From: Pedobacter jejuensis
Lineage (GTDB): Bacteria; Bacteroidota; Bacteroidia; Sphingobacteriales; Sphingobacteriaceae
Length of the DNA: 64,000 nt
Direction: 5' to 3'
Assembly (NCBI RefSeq): GCF_003725795.1
Contig: NZ_RBEE01000002.1
Location: 62,001 to 126,000, forward strand
Positions 38,498 to 62,486 of this stretch are shown one piece after another (the stretch's first letter is position 1; each line of letters starts with the position of its first letter). The notes under the pieces were generated by a model that was not told where the DNA came from, made no database searches, and worked only from the letters and a program-made list of their open reading frames with translations. Position numbers and translations under genes: made by a program.

Positions 38498-38499
38498 TT

Positions 38500-41400
38500 C
38501 TATCTGATTATGGTTAAAGGGCCGGTTATTGATTTTCGCCCATTTCTTGGATTGATAACGTAATAATAAACGCCAACGGGCAAAGGCTCATTTTGATAAT
38601 TGCCATCGAAAGGCACTTTATATGCATTGCTGAAAAACACCCTGTTACCGTTCCTATTGAAAACCTCAATCGTTGCATTTGGGTAACTTTCTAAATATTT
38701 GATGTTCCACACATCGTTAACGCCATCGCCATTTGGTGTAAATGAATTTGGCGGAACTAAAGCTTGTAACACAATAACTTTATAAATTACTTTTACGGTA
38801 CATCCATCACGTGTAGTTGCTGTTAATTCATAATCTGTATCTTTCTCCGGCGATGCTATTGGATTTAAAACATTGGCACTATCTAAACCTAAAGAAGGGC
38901 TCCAGTTGTACGTTAAACCCGAACCTGTTACAAAAGCAGGAAGTTTAACCTGACCACCAGCAAGAATATAAAGAGTGGCTCCCATATCTGCAGTTGGCGA
39001 TTCGTATACGTTTATGGTTCTTGAAATTACTTCTGCACAACCATTGATAGCTGTAAAAGTATAAGTAATTACATGCGAACCGATGCTTACAGATTTAGGA
39101 TTGAAATTACCATCTGCATCTACCCCATCGCCAGAATATATTCCTGAACCTGCAATACCTGAAGTTTCTTTTGCCTGGTTGATTATAACTGAGCCATCAT
39201 TTTGGCAAGCAGCAGGAATATCTGCAAACTCTAATATTGGGGATGGTTTAAGCGTAACAATTTTCGATGTTTCTTTAAAACAGGTTTCTCCTGAATAAGC
39301 AACTAGTTTTATGGTATAATCTTTAGTAGCTGAACCGCCAAAAGGCAAATAAACTAAATGAATATCATCTGAAGTTGGATATATAATCGTCTCAAAAACT
39401 TCGGGTTCATCTACAAAATCTTTATAAATAATTATTTTAGTTATTTTACCAAAAAAAGCGCTCGAAGAATTATTAATTATAACATCTTTATTACTACATA
39501 GGTTGGTTTGGTTTTGAATAGAAAAATCTGCTTTTTCCACTTGCCCATTTACTGTAAAAAGCTTTTGTTGAATAACCTGGCAGCCATTTTCATTGGTAAT
39601 TTTTAATGTTACTAAGTAATCTCCAGCAGTTAGATAAGTGTGTTTACCATCAATATCACTGGAGGTATTTGTTGAAGAACCAATTTCTCCAAAGTTCCAT
39701 TCATAAGTTAAACCATTTGTAGTACCATTAACATTTTTAGATGTATTTTTAAATATTGCAACTCCATCATCAAAACAAACTGCTGGAGTTGTAAAATCTG
39801 CTGTAGGTAAATCGGTAATTGTGATGGTTTTTATGGTAGATGTACTACTGCATCCCATATCAGATGTAGTTCTTAGGGTTACACTTTTAGTTCCAGTACT
39901 TAAATACTGATGTGTCGGATTTTGTTCTATTGATTTTGGTGTTCCATCACCAAAATCCCATTCCCAGGAAGCTATTTTTGCATCAGCATAGATTTCCTTG
40001 TTTATTTTTGACAAATCCTCAAAGCTTACACTGGTATTAATGCAGGTTGTTGTATTACTAATGGAAAATTCAGACACAGGAATAGGGTAAACCATAATGG
40101 TCTTTTTAAGCGGATCAGACCAACATCCATCCTGTGTTCCCACACTTAATGTTACTGAATGCGGTCCCTCTGTATTAAAAGCAAATTTTGGATTCTGATC
40201 AGTAATTATTGTACCATCAAAGTCCCATTTCCATTTGGTTATTTGATTATCAGCTAATGTACTCTTATCGATGGGCATAAATTCGATTCCCAAACAAACT
40301 TTTTCATCTAAAGTAAATTCTGTTTTTGGTGCTTCCTTAACAGTAAAATTGCCTTCTATTTCTTCTGTCAGACCGCAATTTGTAGCATTTAAATATGTTA
40401 CATTTACAGTAAAAGTATTATCTCCGGGTGTTGTAATTATTATATCATCAGGGTAAGTGTAAGTGTAATAAATTTTTCCTCCTATGCTTGTTTCTATTGG
40501 TGTGAGATTTGTTTGATTCTTTGTATACGCACCTCCAAGATTCCATAAAATTTCTGAAGCAGGAGCAGATAAATTAATTTTTAGTTTAAAAGGTTCGTTA
40601 GAACAACTTGATGTAATACTTTGATTGGCCAAGTTGCTGGTTTGAAAAGTAAAACTTTGAATATTTGCACCTGCTAGATATGCATAGGATTCGACATTAC
40701 CGTAACCATAGGCTATTGCAGAGAACCCACCATCAGATGTTAATCGATGTTGCGCTTGTAAGTTTGTAACGTCAATAACAGCATAGCTATATTCAGAACC
40801 AGGTATATTTACAAACGATGAATTGAAATTAGCACCATCAAGTTTAAAAGTTACTATATCTATAGTTTTAATGATAACATTAATAAAATATTTATTAATT
40901 GATGTTGGAACTCCTAATGATCGAATATTTGAAAAGACAGTAATATCATTAAGCGTTTGTTCAACTGGATTTAATAAAGTTATTTCAGGATCGCCAGGAA
41001 AAGGTATTGATGCATTCATACCAGTAGCAGTAGGATTACTTAAGTTACAGGTTTGCGAAGTTTGATAATGAGCTAATGCTATAGGCTTGGAGCCCGAAAC
41101 AATGTTTGGTGCCGTAGAAAAAAACGTTATAACGGAACCTTTTGCATAAGGATTAGTTAAAGGCAAACCATTAGCATTTGATGTGCTACCATTTACATTA
41201 ATTATTGTATTATCTTCTGATACGATAATTTTGAATGCATCTGTATTTCCATGCAACGTATTATAAAATGGTGCAGTAACAAAATTTTTGCCCCAAGAAT
41301 TTATTGGAAATATCTGTTGATACAGATTATCACCACCGCTTGGTGATCTTGAATTACCGTCTTCACAGAAAGCAGTCCAAGTATTACCAGAAAAAAATGC

Positions 41401-42066
41401 AATAGGCTTACAATCACCCACACTACTTACATAACTTCCAGTCAAATCGCTAATAGATTGATACTGATAAATGTCACCTTTATTTAGCTGAATAGTGAAT
41501 TTAGTATTTGCAAGTCTATTCCCACTTCTTGAAGTTTGAGTTGGTGTAATTTCTACTTCAGTTCCATCTTTAGTAGCTAAAACTGTGAATTGAGAATATA
41601 CTGTATTAGAACCAGAATTACCCCCAAAATTTTGATACGAGAACGCATAGTAATCTTTACCTAGAGTATTGGTAGGCAAAATCATTGAGCCACCAGTTCG
41701 CGAGTTATTGGATATGATTGCATATAATGAAATTGACTTATCAGTTACGACATGTATTGCCTTGTCAGTCTCCTTAACTTCCGAAGATGAAATATAAACG
41801 TTAAATGCATTAGGGTTTATAATTTCTTGTTTAGATGTATTGGCAGCGATACTACCTGTTGCAACGACGGTATTTCCAATAGAAACGGTATAATTGGTTT
41901 GAACATCAGCAGAAAGGATCAAAGTCATTCTGGATGTTAAATTATCCACGTGTGCAGAATATGCTAAATAAAAATCTTTGCCTTTATTTGATGAGCTTTG
42001 CCCAAAACTTTTTAAAGAAAACGAAAATACAAAAACAATAAAAACCAAAAAAGCAGTCTTCATCAT
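38500..42066 (-). CDS. Large type IX-secreted surface protein: IgGFc-binding, PKD domains, type B (CHU_C) C-terminal
   Basis: The 1188-residue protein starts MMKTAFLVFIVFVFSFSLKS; ATG at 42066 or 42063 is preferred over an upstream frame extension. An IgGFc-binding-like domain (SSNKGKDFYLAYSAHVDNLT, GSMILPTNTLGKDYYAFSYQ) covers about 25-480. Three PKD domains follow, marked by ITKWKWDFDG, IASWEWDFGDGTPKS and LTYEWNFGEIGSS. The C-terminus, from about 1100, is the gliding-motility-associated type B domain with SFTPNGDGVNDVWNIKYLE and PVGVYYYVINP, which is recognised by type IX secretion. It is probably surface-exposed, with SprF downstream as export partner. Ligand unknown. Confidence 0.93.
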   Translation of the reverse strand: MMKTAFLVFIVFVFSFSLKSFGQSSSNKGKDFYLAYSAHVDNLTSRMTLILSADVQTNYTVSIGNTVVATGSIAANTSKQEIINPNAFNVYISSSEVKETDKAIHVVTDKSISLYAIISNNSRTGGSMILPTNTLGKDYYAFSYQNFGGNSGSNTVYSQFTVLATKDGTEVEITPTQTSRSGNRLANTKFTIQLNKGDIYQYQSISDLTGSYVSSVGDCKPIAFFSGNTWTAFCEDGNSRSPSGGDNLYQQIFPINSWGKNFVTAPFYNTLHGNTDAFKIIVSEDNTIINVNGSTSNANGLPLTNPYAKGSVITFFSTAPNIVSGSKPIALAHYQTSQTCNLSNPTATGMNASIPFPGDPEITLLNPVEQTLNDITVFSNIRSLGVPTSINKYFINVIIKTIDIVTFKLDGANFNSSFVNIPGSEYSYAVIDVTNLQAQHRLTSDGGFSAIAYGYGNVESYAYLAGANIQSFTFQTSNLANQSITSSCSNEPFKLKINLSAPASEILWNLGGAYTKNQTNLTPIETSIGGKIYYTYTYPDDIIITTPGDNTFTVNVTYLNATNCGLTEEIEGNFTVKEAPKTEFTLDEKVCLGIEFMPIDKSTLADNQITKWKWDFDGTIITDQNPKFAFNTEGPHSVTLSVGTQDGCWSDPLKKTIMVYPIPVSEFSISNTTTCINTSVSFEDLSKINKEIYADAKIASWEWDFGDGTPKSIEQNPTHQYLSTGTKSVTLRTTSDMGCSSTSTIKTITITDLPTADFTTPAVCFDDGVAIFKNTSKNVNGTTNGLTYEWNFGEIGSSTNTSSDIDGKHTYLTAGDYLVTLKITNENGCQVIQQKLFTVNGQVEKADFSIQNQTNLCSNKDVIINNSSSAFFGKITKIIIYKDFVDEPEVFETIIYPTSDDIHLVYLPFGGSATKDYTIKLVAYSGETCFKETSKIVTLKPSPILEFADIPAACQNDGSVIINQAKETSGIAGSGIYSGDGVDADGNFNPKSVSIGSHVITYTFTAINGCAEVISRTINVYESPTADMGATLYILAGGQVKLPAFVTGSGLTYNWSPSLGLDSANVLNPIASPEKDTDYELTATTRDGCTVKVIYKVIVLQALVPPNSFTPNGDGVNDVWNIKYLESYPNATIEVFNRNGNRVFFSNAYKVPFDGNYQNEPLPVGVYYYVINPRNGRKSITGPLTIIR

Positions 42067-42301
42067 TATTAATTTATTAGGAATGTAGTTTGCATTTGGT
42101 TGGATATCGAAATGCAATATACTATTTATGAATATACAACAAAAGCACTAAGCAGTTATTTAACAATTTTAAATTGTTAAACTATGGTTTTGTGTAAAAA
42201 AGACGAAAATTGATAGAATAAAAAAAATGATTTTAACTTCTAAAGCCTTAAATATCTATGCGATAAATAAATACATTTAGAATATCATGAAGAAAAATTA
42301 A

Positions 42302-44228: not shown

Positions 44229-45536
44229 ATGAAAGAACAAAATAGTATTCCTGTAACAAAGGTAGAACGATCTGCTAAATTTGTAAAAACTGGTTTTCAA
44301 ATTGGCGGAAATTACATAAAACATTATTCTAAAAAATTGTTCAATCCAGAAATGGATAGAGAACAACTTAATGAAGATAATGCCACAGATATTTACAAAT
44401 CTTTAAGTGAACTTAAAGGCAGTGCTTTAAAAATTGCGCAAATGTTGAGTATGGATAAAAACATACTTCCAAAATCTTATGTTGATAAATTTACGCAGTC
44501 GCAATATAATGCTCCACCCCTTTCCGGACCATTAATTGTAAGAACTTTTACCAAAAATTTCGGCAAAACGCCAGAGCAGATTTACGATACTTTTAACATT
44601 AATTCTACAAATGCAGCTTCAATTGGTCAGGTGCATCAAGCTACTTTAAAAGGTAAAAAACTTGCGGTTAAAATCCAATATCCTGGTGTTGGCGATAGCA
44701 TCTCATCAGATTTAAAATTGGTAAAACCTTTTGCGTTCCGCTTGTTGGGCATGTCTGAAAAGGAATTAAACATTTACATTAAAGAAGTTGAAGAAAGACT
44801 ATTAGAAGAAACGGATTATGAACTAGAAGTTAAACGTTCTATTGAATTTTCTGAAGCTTGCAAAAATTTGGATAATGTAGTTTTCCCAACGTATTACCCT
44901 GAACTTTCTGGTAAAAGAATCATATCCATGGATTGGATTGATGGATTACACTTAAAAGAGTTTTTGCAGACTAATCCGTCACAAGAATTAAGAAATAAAA
45001 TTGGACAAGCCCTTTGGGATTTTTATAATTTCCAACAGCATGAATTAAGGGCAGTACATGCAGATCCGCACCCGGGTAATTTTATGATTACGCCTGATGA
45101 AAAACTGGGGGTAATTGATTTTGGTTGTATAAAAGAAATGCCTGATGATTTTTACTATCCGTTTTTCTCATTAATTTCAACAGATGTCATTAATGATAAA
45201 GCAAAAACAATTGATGCATTTAGGCAGCTTGACATGATTCATAAAGATGATACTGCATCGCAGGTTGAGTTTTATTATAAATCGTACAAAGAAATGATTG
45301 AGCTTTTTGCGAAACCATACATTAATAACACTTTCGATTTTAGTCAGAATGAGTTTTTCGAAAAGCTTTATGAATATGGCGAGAAAATAGCCAAAATGCC
45401 TGAATTTAAACAAGCCCGTGGCGTGAAGCATTTTATTTATGTAAACCGAACTAATTTTGGTTTATATACGATCTTACATGATTTAAAAGCTGTAGTAAAA
45501 ACAGATACTTTTAAACCTTCATTAAATAAAAATTAG
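44229..45536 (+). CDS. ABC1/UbiB (AarF) family atypical kinase
   Basis: The 435-residue protein has the ABC1 motif SELKGSALKIAQMLSMDKNI (KxGQ-like region). It also has the lysine motif ASIGQVHQATLKGKKLAVKI (residues 132-151), the catalytic HADPHPGNFMI and the metal motif VIDFGC. UbiB-type kinases support quinone synthesis or lipid handling through an ATPase activity. No ubiquinone or menaquinone gene is adjacent. Its transcript follows a TetR gene with no intergenic space. The last bases overlap the receiver gene by four bases on the opposite strand. Confidence 0.92.
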   Translation: MKEQNSIPVTKVERSAKFVKTGFQIGGNYIKHYSKKLFNPEMDREQLNEDNATDIYKSLSELKGSALKIAQMLSMDKNILPKSYVDKFTQSQYNAPPLSGPLIVRTFTKNFGKTPEQIYDTFNINSTNAASIGQVHQATLKGKKLAVKIQYPGVGDSISSDLKLVKPFAFRLLGMSEKELNIYIKEVEERLLEETDYELEVKRSIEFSEACKNLDNVVFPTYYPELSGKRIISMDWIDGLHLKEFLQTNPSQELRNKIGQALWDFYNFQQHELRAVHADPHPGNFMITPDEKLGVIDFGCIKEMPDDFYYPFFSLISTDVINDKAKTIDAFRQLDMIHKDDTASQVEFYYKSYKEMIELFAKPYINNTFDFSQNEFFEKLYEYGEKIAKMPEFKQARGVKHFIYVNRTNFGLYTILHDLKAVVKTDTFKPSLNKN

Positions 45537-49127: not shown

Positions 49128-51524
49128 CTAATTTTCGTTTAAGCTCATATCTTCAGTTTTCGCGTTTACCAATTCTCGCTTTGTATTTTTACTTAAATAT
49201 TTAACGCCTACTCTCAAAGCTTTTAACCCTGAAACGCCTTGAAGTTCTTCCAAATCCAATTGCTCCAAATCATCATTTAAATAACCTTGATCTTGCAAAT
49301 ATTTAATGTATTCGATGTATTCCTTAGCTTCTTCTGCATTGAAATAAACCATCGCAATTTTATCTGGCTGGGTTAAACGTTCTGATGTATTTTTAATTAA
49401 AACCTTATCAATTCGTTTTTTAACAACCTCATACCTAATATTATATGCACCTTCCACATCAAATCTTCTTTCATCATTTCTAAAGCTGATATCAATTGAA
49501 TTCGAATGGATGAAAACCAATTGAGTGGTTTGTAATGGTCGTGGCATTTCGCCTATTAAACTTTTAGAAAGCCTAGCAATTTCTACCATTGATGTAAGCT
49601 GCCATAAGCGAATATTTTTCAAATACAGCAAATCGAAAGGTTTGTTAGGCGCAATTTCCTGACCGATGTAAATATCATATTCAACACCATCGGTTCTAAA
49701 TTTTGCAAAATAACAAGGGTATGAAGCCTGAAGATTTTGTTGAGCTGTTTCTAAAAACTGACTCACTTCCATATTAATGGATTGCATCGAAACCTCCAGT
49801 TTTCTTCTATTCTCATAAGCTAAACCAGTTTCAGGTATAATCTCAGCAAAATAATCATCTACAATTTCGGTTACCTCAGGATGATTTAATTTAATAACGG
49901 AAAAGAAAGGATAAACCTCAGCGCTCAAAAACTCATTCAACAGCATTTCTTCATTGCTAGAGGCAACGTTGCTTATACGAACAATCCAATCATTACAATT
50001 AAAAATGAGCTTCTCTATAAGTTCTAAAGGAACAAACTTCCGAATACCTTTTAAAGTTTTGATGATATTTAAAAGGTGTACATGCATATCCTCTTTTAAA
50101 GCTTGGTTACGCTCATTAGTCGAATTCCTGATGTCAACCGCACCAAATAAAGGGTACATATTTTTGAAAGTAATTGTATCGATCTGTCTGTGCTTTCTAC
50201 TTTCTTTATTTTGTCGAAGAAAATGCCAAACTGCCTCATTAAATTTCCATTGAACAGAAGGCTGCAAAGCAGTAAATTTATCCATCAAAACGGCATCCAT
50301 TTTGGCATTAAACTCCTCAATACTATATTGAAAAAGCTGTCCAATTAATGGCATTGCAGGGCGTAATCTCGATAATAATTTATCATCGACAGCCATTTCT
50401 TTTGTAGAATAAACCTCAAGTACGCCAGCCAACTGCTTATTGTAATAAATTGGCAAAACAGAATATGAACAAACACCAGCAGCTTTTAAAACGCGTAAAA
50501 ACGGATCTTTAACAATCTGATCCTCATTAATAGAACTTACAAAAATTGCTCTTGGATCTTCTTTATATTTATCTACTAAAGAGTAAAAAACCTCTTCTTC
50601 GAGGTTAGATGCTTTAGCAGAATTTATCAGCATACTTTGAGAAAAATCCTGATTATCAAAAACCAATTTATCATTAACAGTTAAAAATGGCATTAAACCA
50701 AATTCTAAGTCACCATTTCCACTCAACGTTTTTAAAGCCTGAATAACGTGATTATAGGCTTCTGTTTGATAATTATGATCAACCAATGCACTTCTAATTC
50801 CTTCTATTGCATGCTGTAACGTTACATCAGTTATTGATATTACACTAAAACCTTCAAAAGTAAATTTCTTTAGTGGAAGATTTTTATCCAGGTATTCTAT
50901 TTCTGTTCCCTCCTGGAAATGTTTAGCCAATTCTTCAAAATTCAATTCGGGCAAGCTACCTTTATGCTGAATATCAATAAATTGCGTATCATTTTGAATG
51001 TTGTAATACTGCGTTAGGTTGTTTTCGGTATTTACATGCGCATAAATAATATCATTTTTTAACACCGAGGTAAAGCTGTAAAATCTATTTAAAATTAAAT
51101 TATAAATAAATTTTAAATGCTTCATTTGCGCCGATTCATCTTTACCAGTATTTACTTTGGTTTTAGGATCGTGATCTTTAAAGAATTGATAGAAAGCATT
51201 TGTACTGAAGAATATTTCATCAGGTACAGGCGTACTCAACGCCCAATACAATTCATTTTCGTTAGCCATTAAAGGCGTCAAAATCGTGAATATTAATTCA
51301 AGCGTATCTTTATGTTTTGCTAATTCTTGCGTAGTTATATTTCCAAGTAAAGCGTCTTCTTTCTCTATTTTTTCCAATAGAAATCTGTAAAACTCAGATT
51401 TAACGGTTTTCTCGGTTTTCAATCTGTTCTTCAGATAATTTACTAATGGTCTGAAAGACAAATTTGATTTTACTTGGCAATGAATACATTCATTTTTATG
51501 TATTTGTATTACATTGGTATTCAT
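49128..51524 (-). CDS. Large GAF-domain protein, possible signalling role
   Basis: The 798-residue cytoplasmic protein starts with a short Cys/His segment (HKNECIHCQVKS) and has a GAF-like domain at about 245-400, including VCSYSVLPIYYNKQLAGVLE. A following region at about 445-475 (YPLFGAVDIRNSTNERN) looks like the first metal motif of class III nucleotide cyclases. The C-terminal 300 residues are helical and not recognised. No signal peptide or membrane helix is seen. A TATCTTTG -7 box lies at 51578-51585 without a well-placed -33. Proteins of this type are annotated only as GAF proteins. Confidence 0.8.
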   Translation of the reverse strand: MNTNVIQIHKNECIHCQVKSNLSFRPLVNYLKNRLKTEKTVKSEFYRFLLEKIEKEDALLGNITTQELAKHKDTLELIFTILTPLMANENELYWALSTPVPDEIFFSTNAFYQFFKDHDPKTKVNTGKDESAQMKHLKFIYNLILNRFYSFTSVLKNDIIYAHVNTENNLTQYYNIQNDTQFIDIQHKGSLPELNFEELAKHFQEGTEIEYLDKNLPLKKFTFEGFSVISITDVTLQHAIEGIRSALVDHNYQTEAYNHVIQALKTLSGNGDLEFGLMPFLTVNDKLVFDNQDFSQSMLINSAKASNLEEEVFYSLVDKYKEDPRAIFVSSINEDQIVKDPFLRVLKAAGVCSYSVLPIYYNKQLAGVLEVYSTKEMAVDDKLLSRLRPAMPLIGQLFQYSIEEFNAKMDAVLMDKFTALQPSVQWKFNEAVWHFLRQNKESRKHRQIDTITFKNMYPLFGAVDIRNSTNERNQALKEDMHVHLLNIIKTLKGIRKFVPLELIEKLIFNCNDWIVRISNVASSNEEMLLNEFLSAEVYPFFSVIKLNHPEVTEIVDDYFAEIIPETGLAYENRRKLEVSMQSINMEVSQFLETAQQNLQASYPCYFAKFRTDGVEYDIYIGQEIAPNKPFDLLYLKNIRLWQLTSMVEIARLSKSLIGEMPRPLQTTQLVFIHSNSIDISFRNDERRFDVEGAYNIRYEVVKKRIDKVLIKNTSERLTQPDKIAMVYFNAEEAKEYIEYIKYLQDQGYLNDDLEQLDLEELQGVSGLKALRVGVKYLSKNTKRELVNAKTEDMSLNEN

Positions 51525-51708: not shown

Positions 51709-54700
51709 TTAATATCTGAAGTTTAATGATACATAAGGGTACCATCCATCAGTTGAATGTCCCATTACGAAACGTAAAACTGTTAATGATGCAGGCGCAA
51801 AATAAACACCACCACCAACGCCATGGTGCCATAAATCAGAACTTTGATTTCTGCACCAAACCCTACCAACATCGTAAAATCCTAACAGGCCAATTTGCCC
51901 TGGTAGAACGTAACTCACTAAATCTCCAAGTTTAGCTCTTAATTCTAAATTATTATAAAAACTATGGTCGCCTGCAAACCTAAATTGGCGATAGCCCAAC
52001 AAATTTCCCTGACCACCAATAAACTGAGATTGATAAAAAGCTGGCTTACCGATTGTAATACCGCCACCAAATCTATCAGCAAGAATAAATGCTTTTCTGC
52101 CATCAAGATTTTTATATAAAGCAATGCTACCCGTAAACTGCCCGAAAGAGTTTGAGTATTTATTTAAGCCTTTGTATCCTAAAAATTTAAAATCAACAAA
52201 ACTACCCAGTGTTGGCAACAAATCATTATCACGAGTATTGTTTGTAAAGTTAACAATCGCACCACCAAACATTTTTTCGTTACGAACATTTAAACTATCA
52301 GATGACCCAAGTGGCGCACCACTGGTTATAAATCGGCCTTCGTTATCTTCCTGATTCAATTTATAATATTGAAACGACGGACCAAAGCTAAAAGTAGATT
52401 TTGGTCTGCGCCATCTTAAGGTTGGTTCTACTTGATAAAGATTAAATCTGGCTCTGTAAAACCTGATATCATCTCCATGCTCATCAAAAACAGTTTCATT
52501 TCCAACACCGAAAAAGTTTTGAGTATTATTGGGTGCATAAGCATCGGCTTTAATTATAAAATCTGCTTTACCTAATGCTTTTAACCATTCGCCCCTGTAA
52601 TTAAAGCGAAATGCTTTTGTAGAAAATGAATGTAAAAATGAAACTGTCTGCGTATTACCATAAGGTTGTTTTCTAAATCCAGGATTGGTTTGTTTATAAA
52701 TTAGCCCTAGTAAAATACCATCATCATTATTGTAACCAGCGTTTAAATTATACGATCTTCTATCGTACATATCTTTCGGTATGTAACTGAAATTGGACGT
52801 ATCATTAGAAATTACTTTACTGATTTTTTTAACATCGTTTCCATTGTAAGTCGCTTTATCTTCTCTGCCATATAGCTTTACAAAGCCATTACTACTTTTG
52901 AAATCGTAAACCTTATCTCCCTTACCTCCAATAATCCTGATTTTAATTTTCGAATTTTTATTATTTAGAAATAGGCTGTCGTTACCATTGTGCATATAAA
53001 CCCTTATTTCTTTGGTTACTTTTGGGTCGAAAACACGATTAAACAATTCATCCTTAATATTTCCTTCTTTTGATATTTTGTTGATTTTAACTTTTAAGCC
53101 CTTATCATCGGTATCACTAATTTTAATCAATTCATTTTTATTGGTTACTTCGATATCAACTACTTCGTTAAAGAAATGATAATAATCGTTCATTAATTTT
53201 GGCAATTGCTTAATTCTAACTCGCATTTGTGCTAAAATTGCATCGTGATGAAGCGAATAACTTGGCTCCGGAAGTTTCTTCAAGGCCTTTTCGAAAACTT
53301 CATCATTGTACTTGGAACAAAAATCTTCAACAATCTTATCCCACTCTTTTTCATCAATATTGGCTGTCCACCTGCTACTGATTTCTCTACCTTCCCATAA
53401 AAACCATTTGATGCTTTGTATATCGCGTTCGTAACCCTGCATCATTGGCAAAAGAGATGAAGATTGTGTGTAACGCTGTAATTTACCATCTGACCTGAAG
53501 AAAACCTGGTCTCTATCTCTAGGAACCGGCGAATAATGAGAACCACCATCTTTTTTAGTTTCCTTCCATCTCCACTGGTCTTCATGTCTATCCCAATCAC
53601 CAAGCAAAACATCAAAAGCTCTGGCTCTAACCCAGGCTGGTCCATCTAAAGTATTGTCATTATCATCCGTTAATTTTTTATCCATTTTCGGCGAACTATC
53701 CGATTCTCCTAATGGCTCACGTTCTTCTAAAAGGCATAAAGTGTTCGCGAAAGCAGATTCATATTCGCCCAGATTATCATCAGGAGAAACCCAACCAATT
53801 ATTGGATTACTGTGTGGAATACCACCTGCTTTAGCTAATTCTGGTACAATTAGCGCAGAAAACGGGTGTTGAGCAGACATGTTATCTTTTATAATATCCT
53901 TGGCAAAGGTTTGCCTTAATTGCTCTGGCAAAAGCACTTCCGGAAATTTTTCTACACTCCGTAAAACATATTCTTTACCGTTTTTATCTTCTAACCTTAA
54001 CGAACGAGATTGATTACCGCCACCCCGTTGTGTAGCTTTTAGTCCTCCTCCTATTTGAGATATTTTTATAACCGGGACTTTTGTTTTTTGTGCATATTCT
54101 TTTCGGTAGTTTTCTCCAAAAACATATCTATGGAAACGGCCAACACTATCATATTCTGGTTTGATGGTTACAAAAATACTATCAGCTGTAAGTGGTTTAT
54201 CTCTGTTTCTAACCTTTTGATTTACGTTTTCGAATTTTTTAATGTAACTGAAAACGCGTTTAACACCTGTATCGGCATAAATGTAATATTCGTACCGCAT
54301 ATCGTTGTTTAACAACTGGTCTGCAACTACATACCCCTGTTCCATTTCATGAAACAAAGATGTTTTACCCTGTTTATTTGGAGAAACTTTAGAACCCGAA
54401 CCACTAACAATTTGCAATTGTTCTCCTTTAATTAGTTGTAAACCGTGCTCGTGCCCAGCTACATAAGTAACATTAGGATCATCGCCAAAAACACCATTTA
54501 CAGATTTAATCATTTCTTTATAAGCTGGATGATTTAAATCTTCGGGGCTTAATAAAGTAGAGCGTAAAACAGGATAAACCGAACCTAAAATTGGCAGCGG
54601 AATGTATAAGTTTTTGTTGAGAGAAGTTAATGGAAAAAGATGATTTCTTAAATTAAAATAACCACCATGCGGACCGTAGCTTTGAAATGGATGATGTGAT

Positions 54701-55314
54701 GCAAGCAGAATTACCTTGCCTTTGTTTTTCTCTAGCAAATCTTCCATTTTAACCAAAACTTCATCCGTGGTGCGGCATTCGCATTCGCCGTTTGGATTTG
54801 ACTTATTGTAAGGAAAAAGCCACCATTCGCTGTCGTAAGCGATGATGGTTAATTTGTCGGTTAAATTTATTGCCACCGGATCAGGACAACCATTTTGTGG
54901 AATTAACTTTAAAAGCGGATCATTTTGAGCTTTTAAGTAATCATCCTGTGCTTTAATTTTTGCCAAGCCTTTTGGCCCTGATTTGTCCCAATCGTGATTA
55001 CCTGGAATAAAATATACTGCAGCACCCATCTCTCGCATTGGCGCAAACTGAGATTGTAAAATCTTTTTAGTATCCTCTTCCTCTAAACTTCCCGGCAAAC
55101 CCATTCCGGTTGGATAAATATTATCGCCAAGATAGATTACCGTAGTTTTTTTTGGAATAATTTGTTTTGCAGCATTTTTTAAATCCTGCGTTTGTGCAGG
55201 ATTCATTTCGCCAGCATCGCCAAATAAAATTACCCTATATTTTACATCGCTTTGGGCAGACGCTATAAAGTATATCAGGGAGAAGAATATTGATAAAGTA
55301 AAATTTTTAATCAT
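51709..55314 (-). CDS. Calcineurin-type phosphatase fused to a kinase-like region and outer-membrane barrel
   Basis: The 1201-residue protein (start MIKNFTLSIFFSLIYFIASA) has a Sec signal. Its metallophosphoesterase domain (about 24-300) shows GDAGE (32-36), YLGDNIYP, GNHDWD (105), ASHHPF (205) and AGHEHG (287). The middle carries kinase-like motifs: SRSLRLEDKNGKEYVLRSVE at about 437-455, LLGDWDRHEDQWRW at 570-583 and PRDRDQVFF at 598-606. From about 850 it is a barrel with glycine-aromatic strands, ending WYPYVSLNFRY. The N-terminal part is therefore likely periplasmic and tied to the outer membrane. An upstream start (55386) is less likely, as it precedes the signal. It follows the SdiA-type lipoprotein gene by about 80 bases. 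Confidence 0.88.
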   Translation of the reverse strand: MIKNFTLSIFFSLIYFIASAQSDVKYRVILFGDAGEMNPAQTQDLKNAAKQIIPKKTTVIYLGDNIYPTGMGLPGSLEEEDTKKILQSQFAPMREMGAAVYFIPGNHDWDKSGPKGLAKIKAQDDYLKAQNDPLLKLIPQNGCPDPVAINLTDKLTIIAYDSEWWLFPYNKSNPNGECECRTTDEVLVKMEDLLEKNKGKVILLASHHPFQSYGPHGGYFNLRNHLFPLTSLNKNLYIPLPILGSVYPVLRSTLLSPEDLNHPAYKEMIKSVNGVFGDDPNVTYVAGHEHGLQLIKGEQLQIVSGSGSKVSPNKQGKTSLFHEMEQGYVVADQLLNNDMRYEYYIYADTGVKRVFSYIKKFENVNQKVRNRDKPLTADSIFVTIKPEYDSVGRFHRYVFGENYRKEYAQKTKVPVIKISQIGGGLKATQRGGGNQSRSLRLEDKNGKEYVLRSVEKFPEVLLPEQLRQTFAKDIIKDNMSAQHPFSALIVPELAKAGGIPHSNPIIGWVSPDDNLGEYESAFANTLCLLEEREPLGESDSSPKMDKKLTDDNDNTLDGPAWVRARAFDVLLGDWDRHEDQWRWKETKKDGGSHYSPVPRDRDQVFFRSDGKLQRYTQSSSLLPMMQGYERDIQSIKWFLWEGREISSRWTANIDEKEWDKIVEDFCSKYNDEVFEKALKKLPEPSYSLHHDAILAQMRVRIKQLPKLMNDYYHFFNEVVDIEVTNKNELIKISDTDDKGLKVKINKISKEGNIKDELFNRVFDPKVTKEIRVYMHNGNDSLFLNNKNSKIKIRIIGGKGDKVYDFKSSNGFVKLYGREDKATYNGNDVKKISKVISNDTSNFSYIPKDMYDRRSYNLNAGYNNDDGILLGLIYKQTNPGFRKQPYGNTQTVSFLHSFSTKAFRFNYRGEWLKALGKADFIIKADAYAPNNTQNFFGVGNETVFDEHGDDIRFYRARFNLYQVEPTLRWRRPKSTFSFGPSFQYYKLNQEDNEGRFITSGAPLGSSDSLNVRNEKMFGGAIVNFTNNTRDNDLLPTLGSFVDFKFLGYKGLNKYSNSFGQFTGSIALYKNLDGRKAFILADRFGGGITIGKPAFYQSQFIGGQGNLLGYRQFRFAGDHSFYNNLELRAKLGDLVSYVLPGQIGLLGFYDVGRVWCRNQSSDLWHHGVGGGVYFAPASLTVLRFVMGHSTDGWYPYVSLNFRY

Positions 55315-55393: not shown

Positions 55394-56293
55394 CTATTTC
55401 TTTAGTTTAAACTGTAATATATCTCCCGAAGCTAATGTTCCACCTTCATTTGAAATATATAAATTATTGTCTTTATCAAATGCAATTCCTTCAGGTTGAT
55501 TAAAATTACCACCTTTTAATGGATAAGTAGCTTTTATTTTAAAATCAGCATCAGCAACAACTAACATTTTATTAACTGAAGAAAGAATGTACCATTCATT
55601 TGTAGCCTGATTTTTAGCTAACGCAGATGGCTTAAATTTTACTTTGCCTTCACCAGATATTTTTTCTATATCGGCATACGGTAAATTAAATTCACCTGCT
55701 GGTTTTAAAGAACCATTACCATCAAAATCGAATGCGTAAATACTTGTGGCTTTATTTTTATCATCAGCTTTGCTGGCTTTGGTTAGAATATAAACTTTAC
55801 CAGTTTTTTCATCGGCAGCTAGACCTTCATATTCTGCCTTAGGTACCAAATCTTTAACTTTATCTACATTTTCAGCTTCAGATTTACTAATTTCTGATAA
55901 TGGAAAAATGTGTAATTCACCGTTACTTTTCAAAACAATAACTTTATTTTTAATTATGGCAACATCTTCATAATCACCTTTGCCTCCAAATTTTACATAT
56001 TTCGAATCCTTATCATCCAAACCTAAATAAAATAGGTCTCCATCTTCATCCTGAATAGCAAAAACCTGTTTAGCATCTCCATTATTAAAAGCAATGCCCG
56101 ATATTTCGAATAGGTTTTGAGGCATATTGTATTTAACAGGATTGTTTAAATCATAAGGTAAAGTGCTTTTTTCAGTTGTTGAAGCTTCAGCATCTGCTTT
56201 ATCATCGTGCTTCTCATTTACACATGAAATGCATAAAAAAGCCATCATTAAAACTGCACAACCAGATGCTATGTATAATTTGTAATTTTTCAT
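55394..56293 (-). CDS. SdiA-regulated-like beta-propeller lipoprotein
   Basis: The 299-residue protein is a lipoprotein (MKNYKLYIASGCAVLMMAFL, lipobox CISC near residue 24). The mature part shows propeller repeats: FEISGIAFNNGDAKQVFAIQ, EDVAIIKNKVIVLKSNGELH, EGLAADEKTGKVYILTKAS and PEGIAFDKDNNLYISNEGGT. This is the SdiA-regulated (YjiK-like) family, whose function is unknown. It starts 10 bases after ppk1 ends and precedes the phosphatase-barrel gene, so it is probably part of one transcript with them. Confidence 0.87.
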   Translation of the reverse strand: MKNYKLYIASGCAVLMMAFLCISCVNEKHDDKADAEASTTEKSTLPYDLNNPVKYNMPQNLFEISGIAFNNGDAKQVFAIQDEDGDLFYLGLDDKDSKYVKFGGKGDYEDVAIIKNKVIVLKSNGELHIFPLSEISKSEAENVDKVKDLVPKAEYEGLAADEKTGKVYILTKASKADDKNKATSIYAFDFDGNGSLKPAGEFNLPYADIEKISGEGKVKFKPSALAKNQATNEWYILSSVNKMLVVADADFKIKATYPLKGGNFNQPEGIAFDKDNNLYISNEGGTLASGDILQFKLKK

Positions 56294-56303: not shown

Positions 56304-58343
56304 TTATGATTTGTTTTTTAAAAATTCGTAAATGTTTTGCTGAGATGCAATAAGTGTTCCATCCTTTGGTACAGGAACATTATTCATCGATTCATCAATC
56401 GAAACGGCTTGAACATTGTCATGCAACTGGATTTTGATGAGCTCCAAAATTTCAGCTTTAATTTGGGCATCATAAATGGGAAAACACACTTCAATTCGGC
56501 GGTAAATATTTCTGTTCATCCAATCTGCAGAGCCTAAATAAACATCTTGTTTTCCTAAATTATTAAAGATAAAAATACGACCATGTTCTAGATAACGATC
56601 TACAATACGGGTTATGTTAATGTTTTCGCTCATGCCTTCAACACCAGGAATAAGCCTGCAAATGCTACGCACAATCATATTGATTTTTACACCAGCTTGG
56701 GATGCCTCATAAAGTTTTGTTATGAGTACTTTTTCTTCTAGATTGTTTAATTTTATTGTGATGGAAGCTTCTTTACCTGATTTCGCATGTTTAATTTCCC
56801 TATCTATTAAGTTTAAAAACGTTTGCTGAAGATTAAATTGTGCAACTAAAATGTGTTTAAAATTAATCAAATCTGCTGATGAAGGTTTTACACGTTTAGA
56901 TAGAAAAATAAATAGCAATTCTATTTCGCGTAAAATGTCTTTATTAGCCGTCATTAAAATATGGTCGGTATAAAAAGCGGCTGTACTCTCATTAAAATTT
57001 CCTGTGGCAAGTAAACCTGTGTAAAGCATTCTACCATCAATTTTTCTTTTAACCAAAGCTACTTTAGCATGAACTTTTAAGGCAGTAACGCTGTACACAA
57101 TCTCTACCCCTTTTTCCTTCATTTTCTTTGCCCACTTAATATTGTTGGCTTCATCAAAACGAGCTTTAAGTTCTACCAGCACTAAAACTTTTTTACCGTT
57201 TTGCGCAGCGCTAATAAGTGCATTTATGATTTTAGAATCGCTTGCAACACGATAAATGGTTAAATAAATTTCTTCAACATTCGGGTCTATAGCAGCCTCA
57301 TTAAAGAAGCGAAGCACACTATCATAACTTTGATAGGGCGTATGAATGATAATATCCTTCTTTAAAATTGCTTCTGTTAAGCTTCCATTAAAAACATCAG
57401 TATTGCATAATTTTGGCCACGATTTATTAGATAAGCCTGGCAAACTTACCGGAAAAGCCATAAAATCTTTTAAATTATGATATTGCCCGCCTTCTACCAG
57501 ATTTGCCTTTTTTAAATTAAAGAGCTTTTTAAGCAATGTTAAAACATTTTTTGGAATGCCTGGCTGATGAAGAAACCGCGTTGCCAAGCCCGAATCTCTT
57601 TTTTGAAGTTGTACTTCTAATTGTTCGGAAAGGCTACCAGAATATTCATCTTTTAAATCAATTTCAGCATCTCGGGTAATTTTAAAACTGTAGCAACCCG
57701 TAATTTCTGCTTTGAATATTAAATCGAGATGAAAACGAATGATATCATCTAAAAAAACAATATAGGTCTGATCATCCGCTTCAATTTTATAAAACCTAGG
57801 CAATTCGTTAGACGGAATATTTATAATGACGGATTGGTATGAGTCGCCCTGATTTAACGTAATTAAAAAATACAGCTCGTTATTCGAAGGGAAAAATTTT
57901 GTCTGCTCGTTAATATATACAGGTTTAATAAAAGCCAAAACCTGACTCAAGAAATATCTTGTTACTTGTTGATTAATTAGATCAGGAAACTCTTCACCAT
58001 AAATTAGATTGATCTTATTCTTCTTTAACGCTGGAATGATGTTTTGCTTTAAAGCTTGTCCGTAACGCTGTTGCTGGTTTAATATTAAATCATTCGCGGA
58101 TTTTAATAAATCAGCTTCAATTTTGATATCATTATCATCGCGATTGCTTAATTTTTCTAATGCAAGCAAAACCGGCATTCTCACCCGATAAAATTCATCA
58201 AGATTGGAAGAAAAAATAGATAAAAATTTAACGCGTTCTAAAAGCGGAACTGTTTCCCGTTCGGCTTCCATTAAAATACGTTCGTTAAACTTAAGCCAGC
58301 TTAAATCTCTGTTAAACAAAGTGGTATTCACTAAATCTTCCAT
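56304..58343 (-). CDS. ppk1: Polyphosphate kinase 1
   Basis: The 679-residue enzyme makes polyphosphate from ATP through a phosphohistidine. It has the N-terminal domain signature NRDLSWLKFNERILMEAERE and EFYRVRMP, and the two phospholipase-D-like HKD-type halves with KVHAKVALVKRKIDGRMLYT, ATGNFNESTAAFYTDHILMT and YLGSADWMNRNIYRRIEVCF. Length is as usual. Its start overlaps the stop of the HD-PycTM gene by one base, a strong sign of coupled translation. Confidence 0.96.
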   Translation of the reverse strand: MEDLVNTTLFNRDLSWLKFNERILMEAERETVPLLERVKFLSIFSSNLDEFYRVRMPVLLALEKLSNRDDNDIKIEADLLKSANDLILNQQQRYGQALKQNIIPALKKNKINLIYGEEFPDLINQQVTRYFLSQVLAFIKPVYINEQTKFFPSNNELYFLITLNQGDSYQSVIINIPSNELPRFYKIEADDQTYIVFLDDIIRFHLDLIFKAEITGCYSFKITRDAEIDLKDEYSGSLSEQLEVQLQKRDSGLATRFLHQPGIPKNVLTLLKKLFNLKKANLVEGGQYHNLKDFMAFPVSLPGLSNKSWPKLCNTDVFNGSLTEAILKKDIIIHTPYQSYDSVLRFFNEAAIDPNVEEIYLTIYRVASDSKIINALISAAQNGKKVLVLVELKARFDEANNIKWAKKMKEKGVEIVYSVTALKVHAKVALVKRKIDGRMLYTGLLATGNFNESTAAFYTDHILMTANKDILREIELLFIFLSKRVKPSSADLINFKHILVAQFNLQQTFLNLIDREIKHAKSGKEASITIKLNNLEEKVLITKLYEASQAGVKINMIVRSICRLIPGVEGMSENINITRIVDRYLEHGRIFIFNNLGKQDVYLGSADWMNRNIYRRIEVCFPIYDAQIKAEILELIKIQLHDNVQAVSIDESMNNVPVPKDGTLIASQQNIYEFLKNKS

Positions 58344-59575
58344 TAAAGTTTACCATAAGCTGCGTAAGCAACCACAAACGCCAATACCGCAGCAATTAAG
58401 CCAAACATAAATATGTTGTAAGCCAACCTGATTAATTTGTATTTCCTTCCTAAAACCACACCACCAGAATACACATCGGTAATCAGCGTTCCGTATAAAA
58501 AGTCTTTATCATTCATTACTTTAATCATACCATCTGTATACGCAGGTAGCGACATTTTGTAGAAATTACCGAAGAATAATAAATTAACTTTCTTATTGTC
58601 AACATCTTGCGGGGTGAAAATTCCTGGCGGAATAGATGGTCTGGTAGATAAAATTGAAACGACAACACAAGTTAAACTTACTGTAAGCAAAATAAATGTT
58701 GGGATAATTAAGTTACTGTGATCTTCTAATCTTCTTAAGAGTAAACTTACAATTAACGAAAGCATAATCGAATTTACCGTGATTAAAATATGTGCTTTAT
58801 TATCGGCCATATCGCTTAAACGCTGATTATTGGCAGATGTAATTCTGAACATGGTTTCTATACCTTTATCAGGCTTTTCGGTTTTATCACCTTTATCTTT
58901 TTTCTTTTTTTTATCTTCTGCAAAGATTGATGAACTGGTTGTTGAAATTGACTGATCATCAAAACGAACAATTTCCTTTTCGCCAGATAATTTACTTTTT
59001 ATCTTTTCGATATTTTTGTTCTTTTGATCGCCTAATAATAGCTTTACGTAATCGGTATGGTATTCCTGAGCTTGCAGAAACTGAATATCCTTAACACGCC
59101 AATCATTTTTCTTGATGTCTTTTTCATAAATCAATTCGGCCTCCTTGTGCATCAATTTGCCCTTTTGCCTAAAATTTTCTGTACCGAGGTGAAAAAGATC
59201 TGCATCACATAAAATATCCTCTAAAAGATTTGCGGGTTTTTGAGGAATTTGCGTGCTTAAAATTGCACTCGAAACTTTAGTTCTAATTTCTTCACTTATG
59301 CCTTCAGCTTTTAAATATTTTTTCGCCAAATCTGCGCCTTTAACCTCATGGTTGAATACATCTTCAAAATAACCAGTATCATGAAACCATGCGGCAGTGG
59401 TTACGATAAAAAAATCTTCATCACTTAGCTGATAGTGATTTGCGATTTGCTGTGTGGCTTCTACCACATCTTTGGTATGCTGTAAGTTATGGTAAACCAA
59501 TCTAGAATCGTGGTTTTCTTTAAAGTAGTCGGTAACATGCTTTTCTACATCAATTTGTAGTTGCTTATAATCCAT
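58343..59575 (-). CDS. HD phosphohydrolase fused to a PycTM (DUF5706) membrane domain
   Basis: The 410-residue protein has an HD domain (His29 and His33 in YHNLQHTKDVV, His65-Asp66 in AAWFHDTGYF, Asp124 in CDADLFHLG). A basic linker near 222-236 (KKKKKDKGDK) follows. The C-terminal domain (about 240-408) has the PycTM pattern RITSANNQRLSDMADNKAHI, ILITVNSIMLSLIVSLLLRR and FGNFYKMSLPAYTDGMIKVM, with membrane helices at about 262-281, 288-308 and 382-405. PycTM domains are effectors in Pycsar phage defence, where a cyclic pyrimidine opens membrane damage. No cyclase lies beside it; instead ppk1 overlaps its 3' end by one base, so a nucleotide-signalling role tied to polyphosphate is possible. 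Confidence 0.88.
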   Translation of the reverse strand: MDYKQLQIDVEKHVTDYFKENHDSRLVYHNLQHTKDVVEATQQIANHYQLSDEDFFIVTTAAWFHDTGYFEDVFNHEVKGADLAKKYLKAEGISEEIRTKVSSAILSTQIPQKPANLLEDILCDADLFHLGTENFRQKGKLMHKEAELIYEKDIKKNDWRVKDIQFLQAQEYHTDYVKLLLGDQKNKNIEKIKSKLSGEKEIVRFDDQSISTTSSSIFAEDKKKKKDKGDKTEKPDKGIETMFRITSANNQRLSDMADNKAHILITVNSIMLSLIVSLLLRRLEDHSNLIIPTFILLTVSLTCVVVSILSTRPSIPPGIFTPQDVDNKKVNLLFFGNFYKMSLPAYTDGMIKVMNDKDFLYGTLITDVYSGGVVLGRKYKLIRLAYNIFMFGLIAAVLAFVVAYAAYGKL

Positions 59576-60579: not shown

Positions 60580-61536
60580 TTAGGTTTTAGTTTTGGATAC
60601 GTCTTCTATTTCTATAGAATGTCTTTTTTGCATTTCATCGTATGCTTCTAGCAAATCGAAGCTCAAATTGTCTCGTCCACTGGAATATAGCAACTGTACA
60701 TCTACAGTAACACCTCTCATTGCGGCTATGGGGTCAGTTTTGTCTAAAAGTAATTTGCAATGAACAACATTTGAAGTCTCATCAGGAAATAATGGCTCTT
60801 TGCTCGTCACACTTAGTTTCCAAACACCGTTTTTGAGATTGGTATAATTATAATTGGTGTCCGTTTTTAGGCTTTCAATGGTTATTAATCTGTTGGAGTT
60901 AGACATAAACACATTAACTTTATAATCCTTTTCATAAGTGTTCGAAATGTTTTGAACTTGAATTGCAAAATGAACTTTTACCCATTCTTCGGTAACATCT
61001 TGATGCTTATCATTCAAATACCATTGTGAGATAGCTAGTTTTGATTTGCTTTTCCTACCATAGGTTTGTCGGACTTCGTACTCCTCCATTGGAACTGACA
61101 TAAAGTTATACCTCTTATAATACCTATTATCTTTACTAAGATGTGGTGCATCGTAGCTGTAAGGAATCTTGACTACGTAAACGCTTTTTTTAAGGTCCCC
61201 GCCAAATCTGATGGGAAAAATCTTGATGTCAGAAATCCGACGCTGAACATACGAGCTTATAACCTGTTCTATCCATTCCTTGGTATATTCATTGCCATCA
61301 ATAAATGAGAACTCAGATGCAACATGATTTTCTTCCTTAATACCATAGACGATTATACCACCATCTGAGTTCGCAAAAGAAGCAACATCTTTGGATAGCT
61401 CCATGCGCTTTTTATCAGTTTTCTCTAATGATCCTGCACTTTTAAAATCAAGATATATTGATTCTTCAACTTGGTTGTCGATTAACGATTGTATATCTTC
61501 AACAGTGTAATCCTCTTTATCGTAGAAGCTTTTCAT
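60580..61536 (-). CDS. Schlafen AlbA_2 domain protein (putative ATP- or nucleic-acid-binding)
   Basis: The 318-residue protein has an AlbA_2 domain at about 15-150. The signature pieces are VEESIYLDFKSAG (the E..DFK motif), KDVASFANSDGGIIVYGIKE (AN..GG.I..G) and KNDRYYKRYNF-like DNRYYKRYN. AlbA_2 domains occur in defence and transcription-related proteins and resemble the Schlafen core. The C-terminal half (LAISQWYLNDKHQDVTEEWV onward) is beta-rich and not recognised. It is the last gene of a three-gene operon, starting 8 bases after its neighbour. Confidence 0.85.
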   Translation of the reverse strand: MKSFYDKEDYTVEDIQSLIDNQVEESIYLDFKSAGSLEKTDKKRMELSKDVASFANSDGGIIVYGIKEENHVASEFSFIDGNEYTKEWIEQVISSYVQRRISDIKIFPIRFGGDLKKSVYVVKIPYSYDAPHLSKDNRYYKRYNFMSVPMEEYEVRQTYGRKSKSKLAISQWYLNDKHQDVTEEWVKVHFAIQVQNISNTYEKDYKVNVFMSNSNRLITIESLKTDTNYNYTNLKNGVWKLSVTSKEPLFPDETSNVVHCKLLLDKTDPIAAMRGVTVDVQLLYSSGRDNLSFDLLEAYDEMQKRHSIEIEDVSKTKT

Positions 61537-61544
61537 AATGCAGT

Positions 61545-62486
61545 TTACTTAAGACCGCTTTGCTCTATTAGGAAGATAATGTTAGCTCCGGTAAGGTTCA
61601 AACCATATCTTGTCAATTCGTCATCAACCTTTTGAGGTACTTGGCCTTGTCCATGACCACCCACCTTATTTCTTATCGTTGGGATTCCAGTTGTCAAGAG
61701 GTTTTGAAGAGATGAGAATTGATTCTGTGTAAATGAAGGAATTAGATTATTTGTAAAGCAGATACTAATAAGCTTACTTGCTGTATCGGTTGGATTATAT
61801 GTCCAACCATTCTCATTACATATTGTTTTAATGGCACTTTCAAAAGCCTTAAGACAATCTGTTAAGCACTCTTTGTTTCTTCCATGCCTGTAGTGTTCAT
61901 GAGCTTTCAAATACTCTTCATTTGCTCCTGTGAAACGTTCATCCCAAAGTAGACTCAATGTTGGTTTTGTCACTTCTGAATGCATATAGGTTGAATCTAC
62001 CCTGATTATTTTATCAGATTCAAATTGATACCCAACACCATGTTCGCGAAAGCGCAAATTTAGCTCGTTCATAGCCTCTTCGGGTGTCATGGATATGTTT
62101 ACGGTAATTTCGTATTCATTGAGATCTTTGTTTATTACACGGGATATATACCGAAACGACAGCTCAATTATATCTAATACCTGGTCAACATTGGGAGAGT
62201 ACAATAAGTGACTTTTCACCTGTTCTAATTCAGACTGAGCATAGCCACTTCCATTAACACCGATTTCAAATACACCATATTCTCGACACAAAATCTTATG
62301 TATCATGGAATAGGCTAGTTGCGGTCTATTTGATTCCCCAGAACCACTTTTCCGAACCCCAAATGCATCATCTATGATCATTTTAATTTGAACTCGTAAT
62401 GCAGTAGGTAAGATATCAAACGATAGCACCTCTGGAACTTCCCCTCGCTCCCTTTTTTGCCGCTTTGAAAATAAATCGTAAGTCAT
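61545..62486 (-). CDS. STM4504/CBY_0614-like protein with AbiJ-type regions
   Basis: The 313-residue protein has the STM4504 N-terminal phrase DLFSKRQKRERGEVPEVLSF and TALRVQIKMIIDDAFG, matching AbiJ N-terminal domain-like (AbiJ_NTD4) proteins. The C-terminal part has DCLKAFESAIKTICNENGWT and PTIRNKVGGHGQG, where RNK.GGHG recalls abortive-infection (AbiJ-like) C-terminal domains. This family is linked to phage-resistance loci but its mechanism is unknown. It sits in a three-gene operon between a lipoprotein gene and the AlbA_2 gene, with 8-9 base gaps. Confidence 0.82.
   Translation of the reverse strand: MTYDLFSKRQKRERGEVPEVLSFDILPTALRVQIKMIIDDAFGVRKSGSGESNRPQLAYSMIHKILCREYGVFEIGVNGSGYAQSELEQVKSHLLYSPNVDQVLDIIELSFRYISRVINKDLNEYEITVNISMTPEEAMNELNLRFREHGVGYQFESDKIIRVDSTYMHSEVTKPTLSLLWDERFTGANEEYLKAHEHYRHGRNKECLTDCLKAFESAIKTICNENGWTYNPTDTASKLISICFTNNLIPSFTQNQFSSLQNLLTTGIPTIRNKVGGHGQGQVPQKVDDELTRYGLNLTGANIIFLIEQSGLK

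Follow-up and report, generated by a model that had tools for sequence, protein, structure and literature searches.

A predicted outer-membrane protein of Pedobacter jejuensis with a purple-acid-phosphatase-type domain, an atypical kinase-fold domain and an Omp85-type barrel

The fusion protein and its outer domains

The DNA analysed here, referred to as the window, is a stretch of 64,000 nucleotides from Pedobacter jejuensis (assembly GCF_003725795.1, contig NZ_RBEE01000002.1, positions 62,001 to 126,000). On its minus strand a single open frame, P0001, begins with an ATG at 55314 and stops at 51709, encoding 1201 amino acids; an alternative longer version starting from a TTG at 55386 is possible. 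An earlier reading of the letters alone (the sequence-only reading) had described its product as a calcineurin-type phosphatase, a kinase-like middle region and an outer-membrane barrel. As modelled, P0001 carries three folds: a purple acid phosphatase, a two-lobed atypical kinase fold and an Omp85 barrel (Table 1).

Pfam recognised the two ends of the protein, with PF00149 at residues 27–224 (38.5 bits, cut-off 21.5) and the Omp85 family PF01103 at residues 946–1163 (37.7 bits, cut-off 24). Between them, at residues 225–945, no Pfam or NCBIfam family passed its cut-off, and only a stray match to GtgE was seen (E 0.4). A full-length AlphaFold2 model, built with 36 aligned full-length sequences, had a mean predicted local distance difference test score (pLDDT) of 82.1 and a predicted template modelling score (pTM) of 0.64, and showed 16 long strands from residue 852 onwards. 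A search of the organism's own genome with P0001 gave one match, and the nearest relatives among the matches listed were from Pedobacter (P. mendelii, 91%). We considered that the motifs of P0001 might be a product of chance or artefact and rejected this, because full-length homologs with conserved motifs span many genera.

Table 1. Features of P0001 and of its neighbouring genes; positions are those of the window
Feature	Positions	Strand	Basis and occurrence
Fusion-protein coding sequence P0001, 1201 aa	51709..55314	-	open frame; partial or full match in 42/61 sampled family genomes
Signal peptide, residues ~1-20	55255..55314	-	sequence reading; export-signal-like N-termini in 77/85 representatives (home-made rule)
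Purple-acid-phosphatase-type metallophosphoesterase, residues 24-345	54280..55245	-	PF00149; VIA Z 28.6 with pig purple acid phosphatase; ligand positions
Predicted atypical kinase-fold domain, residues 378-715	53170..54183	-	AlphaFold2 pLDDT 84.3; Foldseek/VIA matches CtkA, PI4KII, CotH; conserved motifs
Gly-rich loop GGGNQSRS, residues 431-438	54001..54024	-	G431 81/86, G432 83/86, Q435 83/86
End of strand beta-3, R452-S-V-E-K456	53947..53961	-	R452 and K456 conservation; predicted strand at residues 448-453 (model 87-92)
Putative catalytic-loop motif D573-W-D-R-H-E-D-Q580	53575..53598	-	conservation; CotH register; CtkA register at E 0.51
Putative metal motif P598-R-D-R-D602	53509..53523	-	conservation; register with CotH PYDYD
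Beta-rich linker, residues 718-850	52765..53163	-	secondary structure in full-length model
Omp85-type 16-strand barrel, residues 852-1201	51712..52761	-	PF01103; 16 long strands; VIA matches BamA, TamA
Lipoprotein-like SdiA-regulated/phytase-like propeller	55394..56293	-	PF06977 1e-11; 59/70 homologs, 13/20 phylum-wide loci
Polyphosphate kinase 1 (PPK1)	56304..58343	-	TIGR03705; 57/70 homologs, 4/20 phylum-wide loci
HD-domain and PycTM membrane protein (HD-PycTM)	58343..59575	-	PF18967, PF01966; 64/70 homologs, 16/20 phylum-wide loci
798-aa protein, weak GAF similarity	49128..51524	-	GAF_2 E 0.02, below cut-off; 64/70 homologs, 6/20 phylum-wide loci

The phosphatase could be assigned more closely than before. 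In the predicted model, residues 22–364 (model numbering 3–345) superimposed on pig purple acid phosphatase with a VIA Z of 28.6 over 267 residues at 3.0 Å. Seven residues, D33, D64, Y67, N106, H207, H288 and H290, which in the register of a phmmer alignment to PDB sequences we take to be the metal-ligand positions of purple acid phosphatases, were each kept in 89–92 of 92 phosphatase-bearing homologs, so that P0001 combines this fold with all seven positions, the Tyr of GDxxY included. The same phmmer search with the whole protein returned phosphatases and one MotB match at E 0.29. The calcineurin-type assignment with metal motifs at residues 24–300 is refined to the purple-acid kind.

The barrel predicted by the sequence-only reading from about residue 850 was also found. 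Residues 852–1199 matched BamA (VIA Z 26.0, 309 residues, 3.3 Å) and TamA (Z 25.4), and P0001 has the 16-strand barrel domain that is a trait of the Omp85 superfamily. No POTRA family was matched in Pfam at E up to 1, the fold of the linker at residues 718–850 not having been searched separately, and neither was patatin, the passenger of type Vd secretion, at the same threshold. The N-terminus of Omp85 proteins normally faces the periplasm, and by this analogy the N-terminal domains of P0001 are probably periplasmic rather than exposed on the surface, so that the surface location put forward by the sequence-only reading is not supported.

The kinase-fold domain

The sequence-only reading had placed three kinase-like motifs in the middle region: a pair of Lys-bearing strands at residues 437–456, LLGDWDRHEDQW at residues 570–581 and PRDRDQVFF at residues 598–606. 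All three strings were found at these residues. That reading had also proposed modelling residues 310–850, where a fold devoid of kinase-like lobes would have counted against it. When residues 362–765 were modelled alone by AlphaFold2 with 47 sequences, two kinase-like lobes were obtained (pLDDT 84.3, pTM 0.84). With this model, Foldseek found CtkA at E 2e-4 and the type II phosphatidylinositol 4-kinase PI4KII-alpha at 3.2e-4, followed by Fam20C, Rio2 and CotH at 0.006–0.04. In VIA comparisons over approximately residues 414–715, the highest Z was obtained with PI4KII-beta (14.6; 253 residues, 4.2 Å), then with PI4KII-alpha (13.9), CotH (13.4; 242 residues, 4.0 Å), CtkA (12.8; 227 residues, 4.5 Å) and phosphatidylinositol 3-kinase (about 12). 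The best 50 rows were all kinases, and Z was at least 8 for 314 of the 993 chains compared. We therefore regard a kinase fold for residues ~414–715 as very probable, as far as models can tell, and by predicted fold and motifs the domain is a member of the protein-kinase-like superfamily. The Pfam cut-offs for CotH (PF08757), HipA and PI3/PI4 kinase (PF00454) were not reached by P0001, by the 47 aligned members or by single-domain relatives, and a profile of the 47 rows searched against PDB sequences gave unrelated matches only. Elsewhere in the window, at 44229–45536, an ABC1-type atypical kinase (PF03109) is encoded, which belongs to a Pfam family distinct from anything in P0001.

Conservation was scored in 86 representatives that were less than 70% identical, the window row included, drawn from 153 aligned kinase-domain rows; these rows are redundant in that one gene may recur in several loci, and the sequences L148 and L149 (fewer than 250 profile positions matched) and the Parabacteroides sequence L200 lie outside both sets. 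Four residues, D477, D573, D600 and G610, were present in all 86. D575 was kept in 81, R576 in 82, H577 in 80 and D602 in 83, and position 580 was Gln in 77 and Asn in 8. The catalytic and metal-binding aspartates expected of the superfamily are present, putatively as D575 and D600. In a second set of 59 representatives less than 75% identical, D573, W574, D575, D579, Q580 and the whole of P598-R-D-R-D602 were invariant, and R576 and H577 were each found in 58. As for the strands at 437–456, they do contain Lys, but the conserved one, K456 (82/86), sits just past predicted strand beta-3; judging from the predicted strand positions, it is residue 452, Arg in 82 representatives and Lys in 2, that is expected to occupy the usual beta-3 Lys site.

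All four aspartates at 573, 575, 600 and 602 were present in 147 of the 153 rows. The six rows that lacked one or more were three barrel-less paralogs from one genus, probably Hymenobacter-like (g38; L142, L143 and L144) and three kinase-barrel proteins (L150, L151 and L152). The conservation of DWDRH in three-part homologs, suggested earlier as a check, thus holds, these losses being confined to other architectures; one three-part protein, L087, has DWDQQ instead. In L142–L144 the motif reads DWSRR, with D575 replaced by Ser and H577 by Arg. Each of these copies adjoins, in divergent orientation, an intact DWDRH copy, an arrangement resembling a kinase/pseudokinase pair. In L148 and L149 the kinase region is eroded and the barrel retained. 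L150 and L151 form a branch that is joined by L200, a Parabacteroides distasonis protein annotated as 'hypothetical protein'; at residues 450–453 this branch has a canonical-looking LLKP or MLKP strand, and a profile made from its three sequences recovered P0001 at E 4e-30.

We also compared the domain with known kinases by sequence. Against an alignment of 20 Bacteroidota CotH proteins, trimmed to the domain, hhalign gave a P-value of 4e-4 and a score of 37.8, with GDWDRH aligned to GNWDNY and PRDRD to PYDYD. The best of 60 column shuffles scored 26.1; control alignments, of the phosphatase and of the barrel, scored 12.3 and 17.0. For a diverse set of 23 rows the score with CotH was 33.1, with 22.9 for the best of 60 shuffles and 14.9 for the reversed profile. 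When the 23-row profile was searched against PDB sequences, CtkA came fourth at E 0.51, and since three unrelated sequences rank above it we take this match as supporting only. The alignment is gapless at the catalytic loop, where D575 lies opposite CtkA residue 155 and WDRHEDQW faces FDRHNGNW, and this register makes D575 the catalytic Asp and Q580 the equivalent of the usual Asn. D573 is, however, more strictly conserved than D575, and for that reason we treat D575 as a tentative assignment.

Distribution, architectures and neighbouring genes

Of 395 sampled Bacteroidota genomes, 143 contained a match to the kinase-domain profile, as did 73 of 170 genera; the domain occurred as part of a fusion, in a gene beside those for the other parts, or on its own. 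In its own family, the search with P0001 found 42 of 61 genomes, some of them through the phosphatase part alone. The best 80 matches of a contig scan were all from Bacteroidota, no search having been aimed at relatives outside the phylum. Phage or plasmid cargo was considered and rejected: there was no phage match, none was confirmed in viral contigs, and plasmid records numbered five, all from Bacteroidota. Four of the matching plasmid records are annotated, and in these the kinase-domain protein is called 'hypothetical protein'.

The three parts do not always occur in one chain. Leaving the window row aside, 51 of the 85 representatives had both of the other parts, 25 had the barrel but no phosphatase, and 9 lacked both. 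L145 and L146 carry the three parts as separate single-domain genes that lie next to one another, with lipobox-like N-termini on the kinase and the phosphatase. In L159 a phosphatase gene adjoins a kinase-barrel gene, and in L157 and L158 a GAF-like gene alone separates the two. Single kinase domains that follow an N-terminal membrane-anchor-like segment were found in L140 and L141. Export signals were scored by a home-made rule on the N-termini of the 85 representatives, and 77 had a signal-like or lipobox N-terminus (20 lipobox-like, some of them doubtful); of the eight others, some are cut by the end of the locus or split by a frame change. From these fissions and fusions, together with the export signals, the kinase domain appears to be an independent exported module that is mostly joined to a phosphatase.

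In the window, the genes for HD-PycTM, PPK1, the phytase-like propeller, P0001 and the 798-aa GAF-like protein follow one another in this order on the minus strand, all co-directional. Their company was surveyed in up to 10 kb on each side of 70 three-domain homologs, a set heavy in Pedobacter, and in 20 loci chosen across the phylum; the phylum-wide PPK1 count omits false barrel matches caused by an in-frame fusion frame (L013) in the profile. When the Pedobacter-heavy set was counted by genus label (n = 20), the GAF-like gene was near in 17, HD-PycTM in 16, and PPK1 and the propeller in 15 each. On the counts of the two surveys (Table 1), HD-PycTM and the propeller are the most constant companions. 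An obligate partnership with PPK1, which the Pedobacter-rich set had suggested, is ruled out by the phylum-wide one.

Several side observations were made in the same regions. The HD-PycTM gene was the commonest neighbour in the 20 phylum-wide loci, and the PycTM portion of its product is similar to defence-system effectors. Just upstream of P0001, in the gap that separates it from the propeller gene, the minus strand has a terminator-like hairpin (55382–55355); in the region, 10 such sites were found and 6.7 were expected from shuffles. The common direction of the genes would allow a shared transcript, and this hairpin speaks against one. In another genome (G025; L180, 2998–8565), the PPK1 frame continues, with no intervening stop codon, into a degenerate P0001 copy, giving an open frame of 1856 codons; this copy has GNAG in place of D33 and lacks residues ~224–250. 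Further away in the window, at 37484–42117, a PorP/SprF-like protein is encoded beside a protein of 1205 aa that has PKD repeats and the CHU_C signal for type IX secretion, and at 60580–62486 a Schlafen AlbA_2 protein stands beside a protein with AbiJ_NTD4 and DUF7014, possibly a defence pair.

Possible function and relation to known systems

P0001 could be an exported kinase/phosphatase pair with opposing phosphate transfer, anchored in the outer membrane by its Omp85 tether, and on the models we consider the chances of this evenly balanced. In such a protein the CtkA/PI4KII/CotH-type kinase domain would transfer a phosphoryl group, with D575 as putative catalytic Asp and a metal held by D600, D602 and Q580. 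The N-terminal domains would extend into the periplasm, where those of other Omp85 proteins lie, and the phosphatase would take off this phosphate or a related one. P0001 would thereby control how far an envelope substrate (a protein, lipid or glycan) is phosphorylated. Of the separate parts, catalytic phosphotransfer by the modelled domain seems slightly favoured, and a substrate common to both enzyme domains is possible but doubtful. The proposal of the sequence-only reading, one protein that could both add and remove phosphate, has gained a predicted kinase fold and two conserved motif sets, while the activity itself is a prediction. Because the three parts recur across the Bacteroidota, addition and removal of phosphate at the outer membrane is suggested, and members of this phylum may do both there.

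A number of observations weigh against the paired kinase and phosphatase. The superfamily's beta-3 Lys is replaced by Arg in 82 of the 86 representatives, and the L150/L151/L200 branch has Asn575 and either Ser or Asn at 602. The hhalign probabilities with CotH were low (19.6% for full-length CotH, 35% for the trimmed domain and 14.5% for the diverse set), and the CtkA sequence match taken alone is below significance. The six best Foldseek superpositions were loose, with root-mean-square deviations of 8–10 Å and TM-scores of 0.36–0.53, and for this reason we place the fit at the level of the superfamily and not of a close family. The arrangement of the domains in the full-length model is unsure, as its pTM indicates. 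The kinase domain does not always come with a phosphatase (in 25 of the 85 representatives it is joined to a barrel alone, and in 9 it stands by itself), and no phosphatase homolog was found within the fetched flanks of any of the nine kinase-barrel loci taken from genome contigs. Finally, the periplasm normally contains little ATP.

An alternative is a kinase-fold domain that is not a phosphotransferase, and which instead catalyses AMPylation or glutamylation, or whose only role is to bind a phosphorylated ligand and guide the phosphatase. The Arg at the expected Lys site is in line with this, as are the degenerate members, namely the copies with Ser at 575 beside an intact one and the eroded kinase regions of L148 and L149, and the KINtaro abstract (PMC10870513) names such activities for this fold. 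On the other hand, D575, D600, D602, H577 and Gln or Asn at 580 are kept in most of the 86 representatives, and ligand binding alone would not obviously need both Asp motifs; we consider this explanation somewhat unlikely. A role in phosphorus scavenging, in which phosphatase, propeller and barrel would free phosphate or its carriers and let them in and the kinase fold would handle a phosphorylated intermediate, draws on the purple-acid type of the phosphatase, on the Phytase-like score of the neighbouring propeller (27.3 bits, just under the Pfam cut-off of 27.6) and on the adjacent PPK1, found in the flanks of 57 of the 70 three-domain homologs. In F. johnsoniae, a polyphosphate-kinase-like gene, which need not belong to this locus, is listed as induced by phosphate depletion in a table of PMC8115612. 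Phylum-wide, PPK1 was near only 4 of 20 loci as against 16 of 20 for HD-PycTM. Nor do we know of an Omp85 barrel that serves as a phosphate porin, and scavenging appears rather unlikely.

The position of the enzyme domains, N-terminal to an Omp85 barrel, would also suit a type Vd-like route in which the barrel exports them to the surface, as has been suggested for PlpD, a patatin protein, and Heinz and Lithgow raised the same analogy in their passages on the 'Metallo' subfamily (PMC4104836). P0001 matches neither patatin nor a POTRA family of Pfam at E up to 1, and kinase-domain relatives with lipobox or membrane-anchor-like N-termini occur in the absence of a barrel, from which it follows that the barrel is not required for the kinase domain; such a route seems quite improbable.

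Returning to the kinase/phosphatase pair, its most far-reaching form would be a first outer-membrane switch found throughout the phylum, in which a PI4KII/CtkA-type kinase phosphorylates an envelope lipid or lipoprotein, the purple acid phosphatase reverses this, the donor is possibly not periplasmic ATP, and one genus pairs its kinase with a pseudokinase-like copy encoded divergently. Some Bacteroidota make inositol lipids, which would be candidate substrates. In all its parts together this version is unlikely. A conserved domain of predicted kinase fold, unnamed in Pfam and NCBIfam, occurs in about one third of the sampled Bacteroidota genomes, within proteins that carry export signals. If it is active, regulated phosphorylation would take place at the outer membrane, which raises the question of the phosphate donor there; to our knowledge no enzyme for such regulated phosphorylation is established. 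The natural fission into single genes makes it easier to test each part alone.

Among known systems, mammalian purple acid phosphatase (TRAP/ACP5) resembles P0001 in fold and in its seven metal-ligand positions, and differs in its sequence (20% identity) and in that the P0001 phosphatase shares its chain with a kinase fold and a barrel. The kinase domain resembles CtkA of Helicobacter pylori, a HipA-like protein, which was the top Foldseek match and has its catalytic loop in register; identity is 9–10% in the Foldseek rows, and the solved CtkA chains, of about 275–325 residues, have neither barrel nor phosphatase. Type II phosphatidylinositol 4-kinases were the top VIA match, and their DRGNDNW loop resembles DRHEDQW. 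These are lipid kinases of eukaryotes, whereas P0001 has no PF00454 match, and PF00454 was found in none of 118 sampled Bacteroidota genomes. The spore-coat kinases of the CotH family are similar in fold and have GNWDNY and PYDYD in register; no CotH match was found in the organism's own genome.

Our literature search, which covered few subscription papers so that earlier recognition is possible, brought up no paper that we recognised as dealing with this kinase domain. The words 'phosphatase', 'phosphoesterase' and 'kinase' are absent from the main text of two papers on Bacteroidota BAM and TAM (PMC12611786, PMC12045153), and a Riemerella metallophosphoesterase is given as a type IX effector in a passage of the review PMC10202324. 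The sequence-only reading knew of no described system with this order of domains, and this has to be corrected, as a combination of PF00149 with Omp85 was grouped in 2014 as the 'Metallo' subfamily (Heinz and Lithgow, PMC4104836), which is defined there by PF00149, called a metalloprotease, and discussed in terms of periplasmic quality control or surface export. The 'Metallo' passages make no mention of the kinase domain, and 'kinase' as a word is absent from the main text of that article. P0001, too, has PF00149 N-terminal to an Omp85 barrel, and we liken it to the subfamily by this domain description and do not claim that it is among the proteins of that study. For 'Metallo', these passages describe conservation at the level of the genus, whereas the kinase domain described here occurs in 143 of the 395 Bacteroidota genomes.

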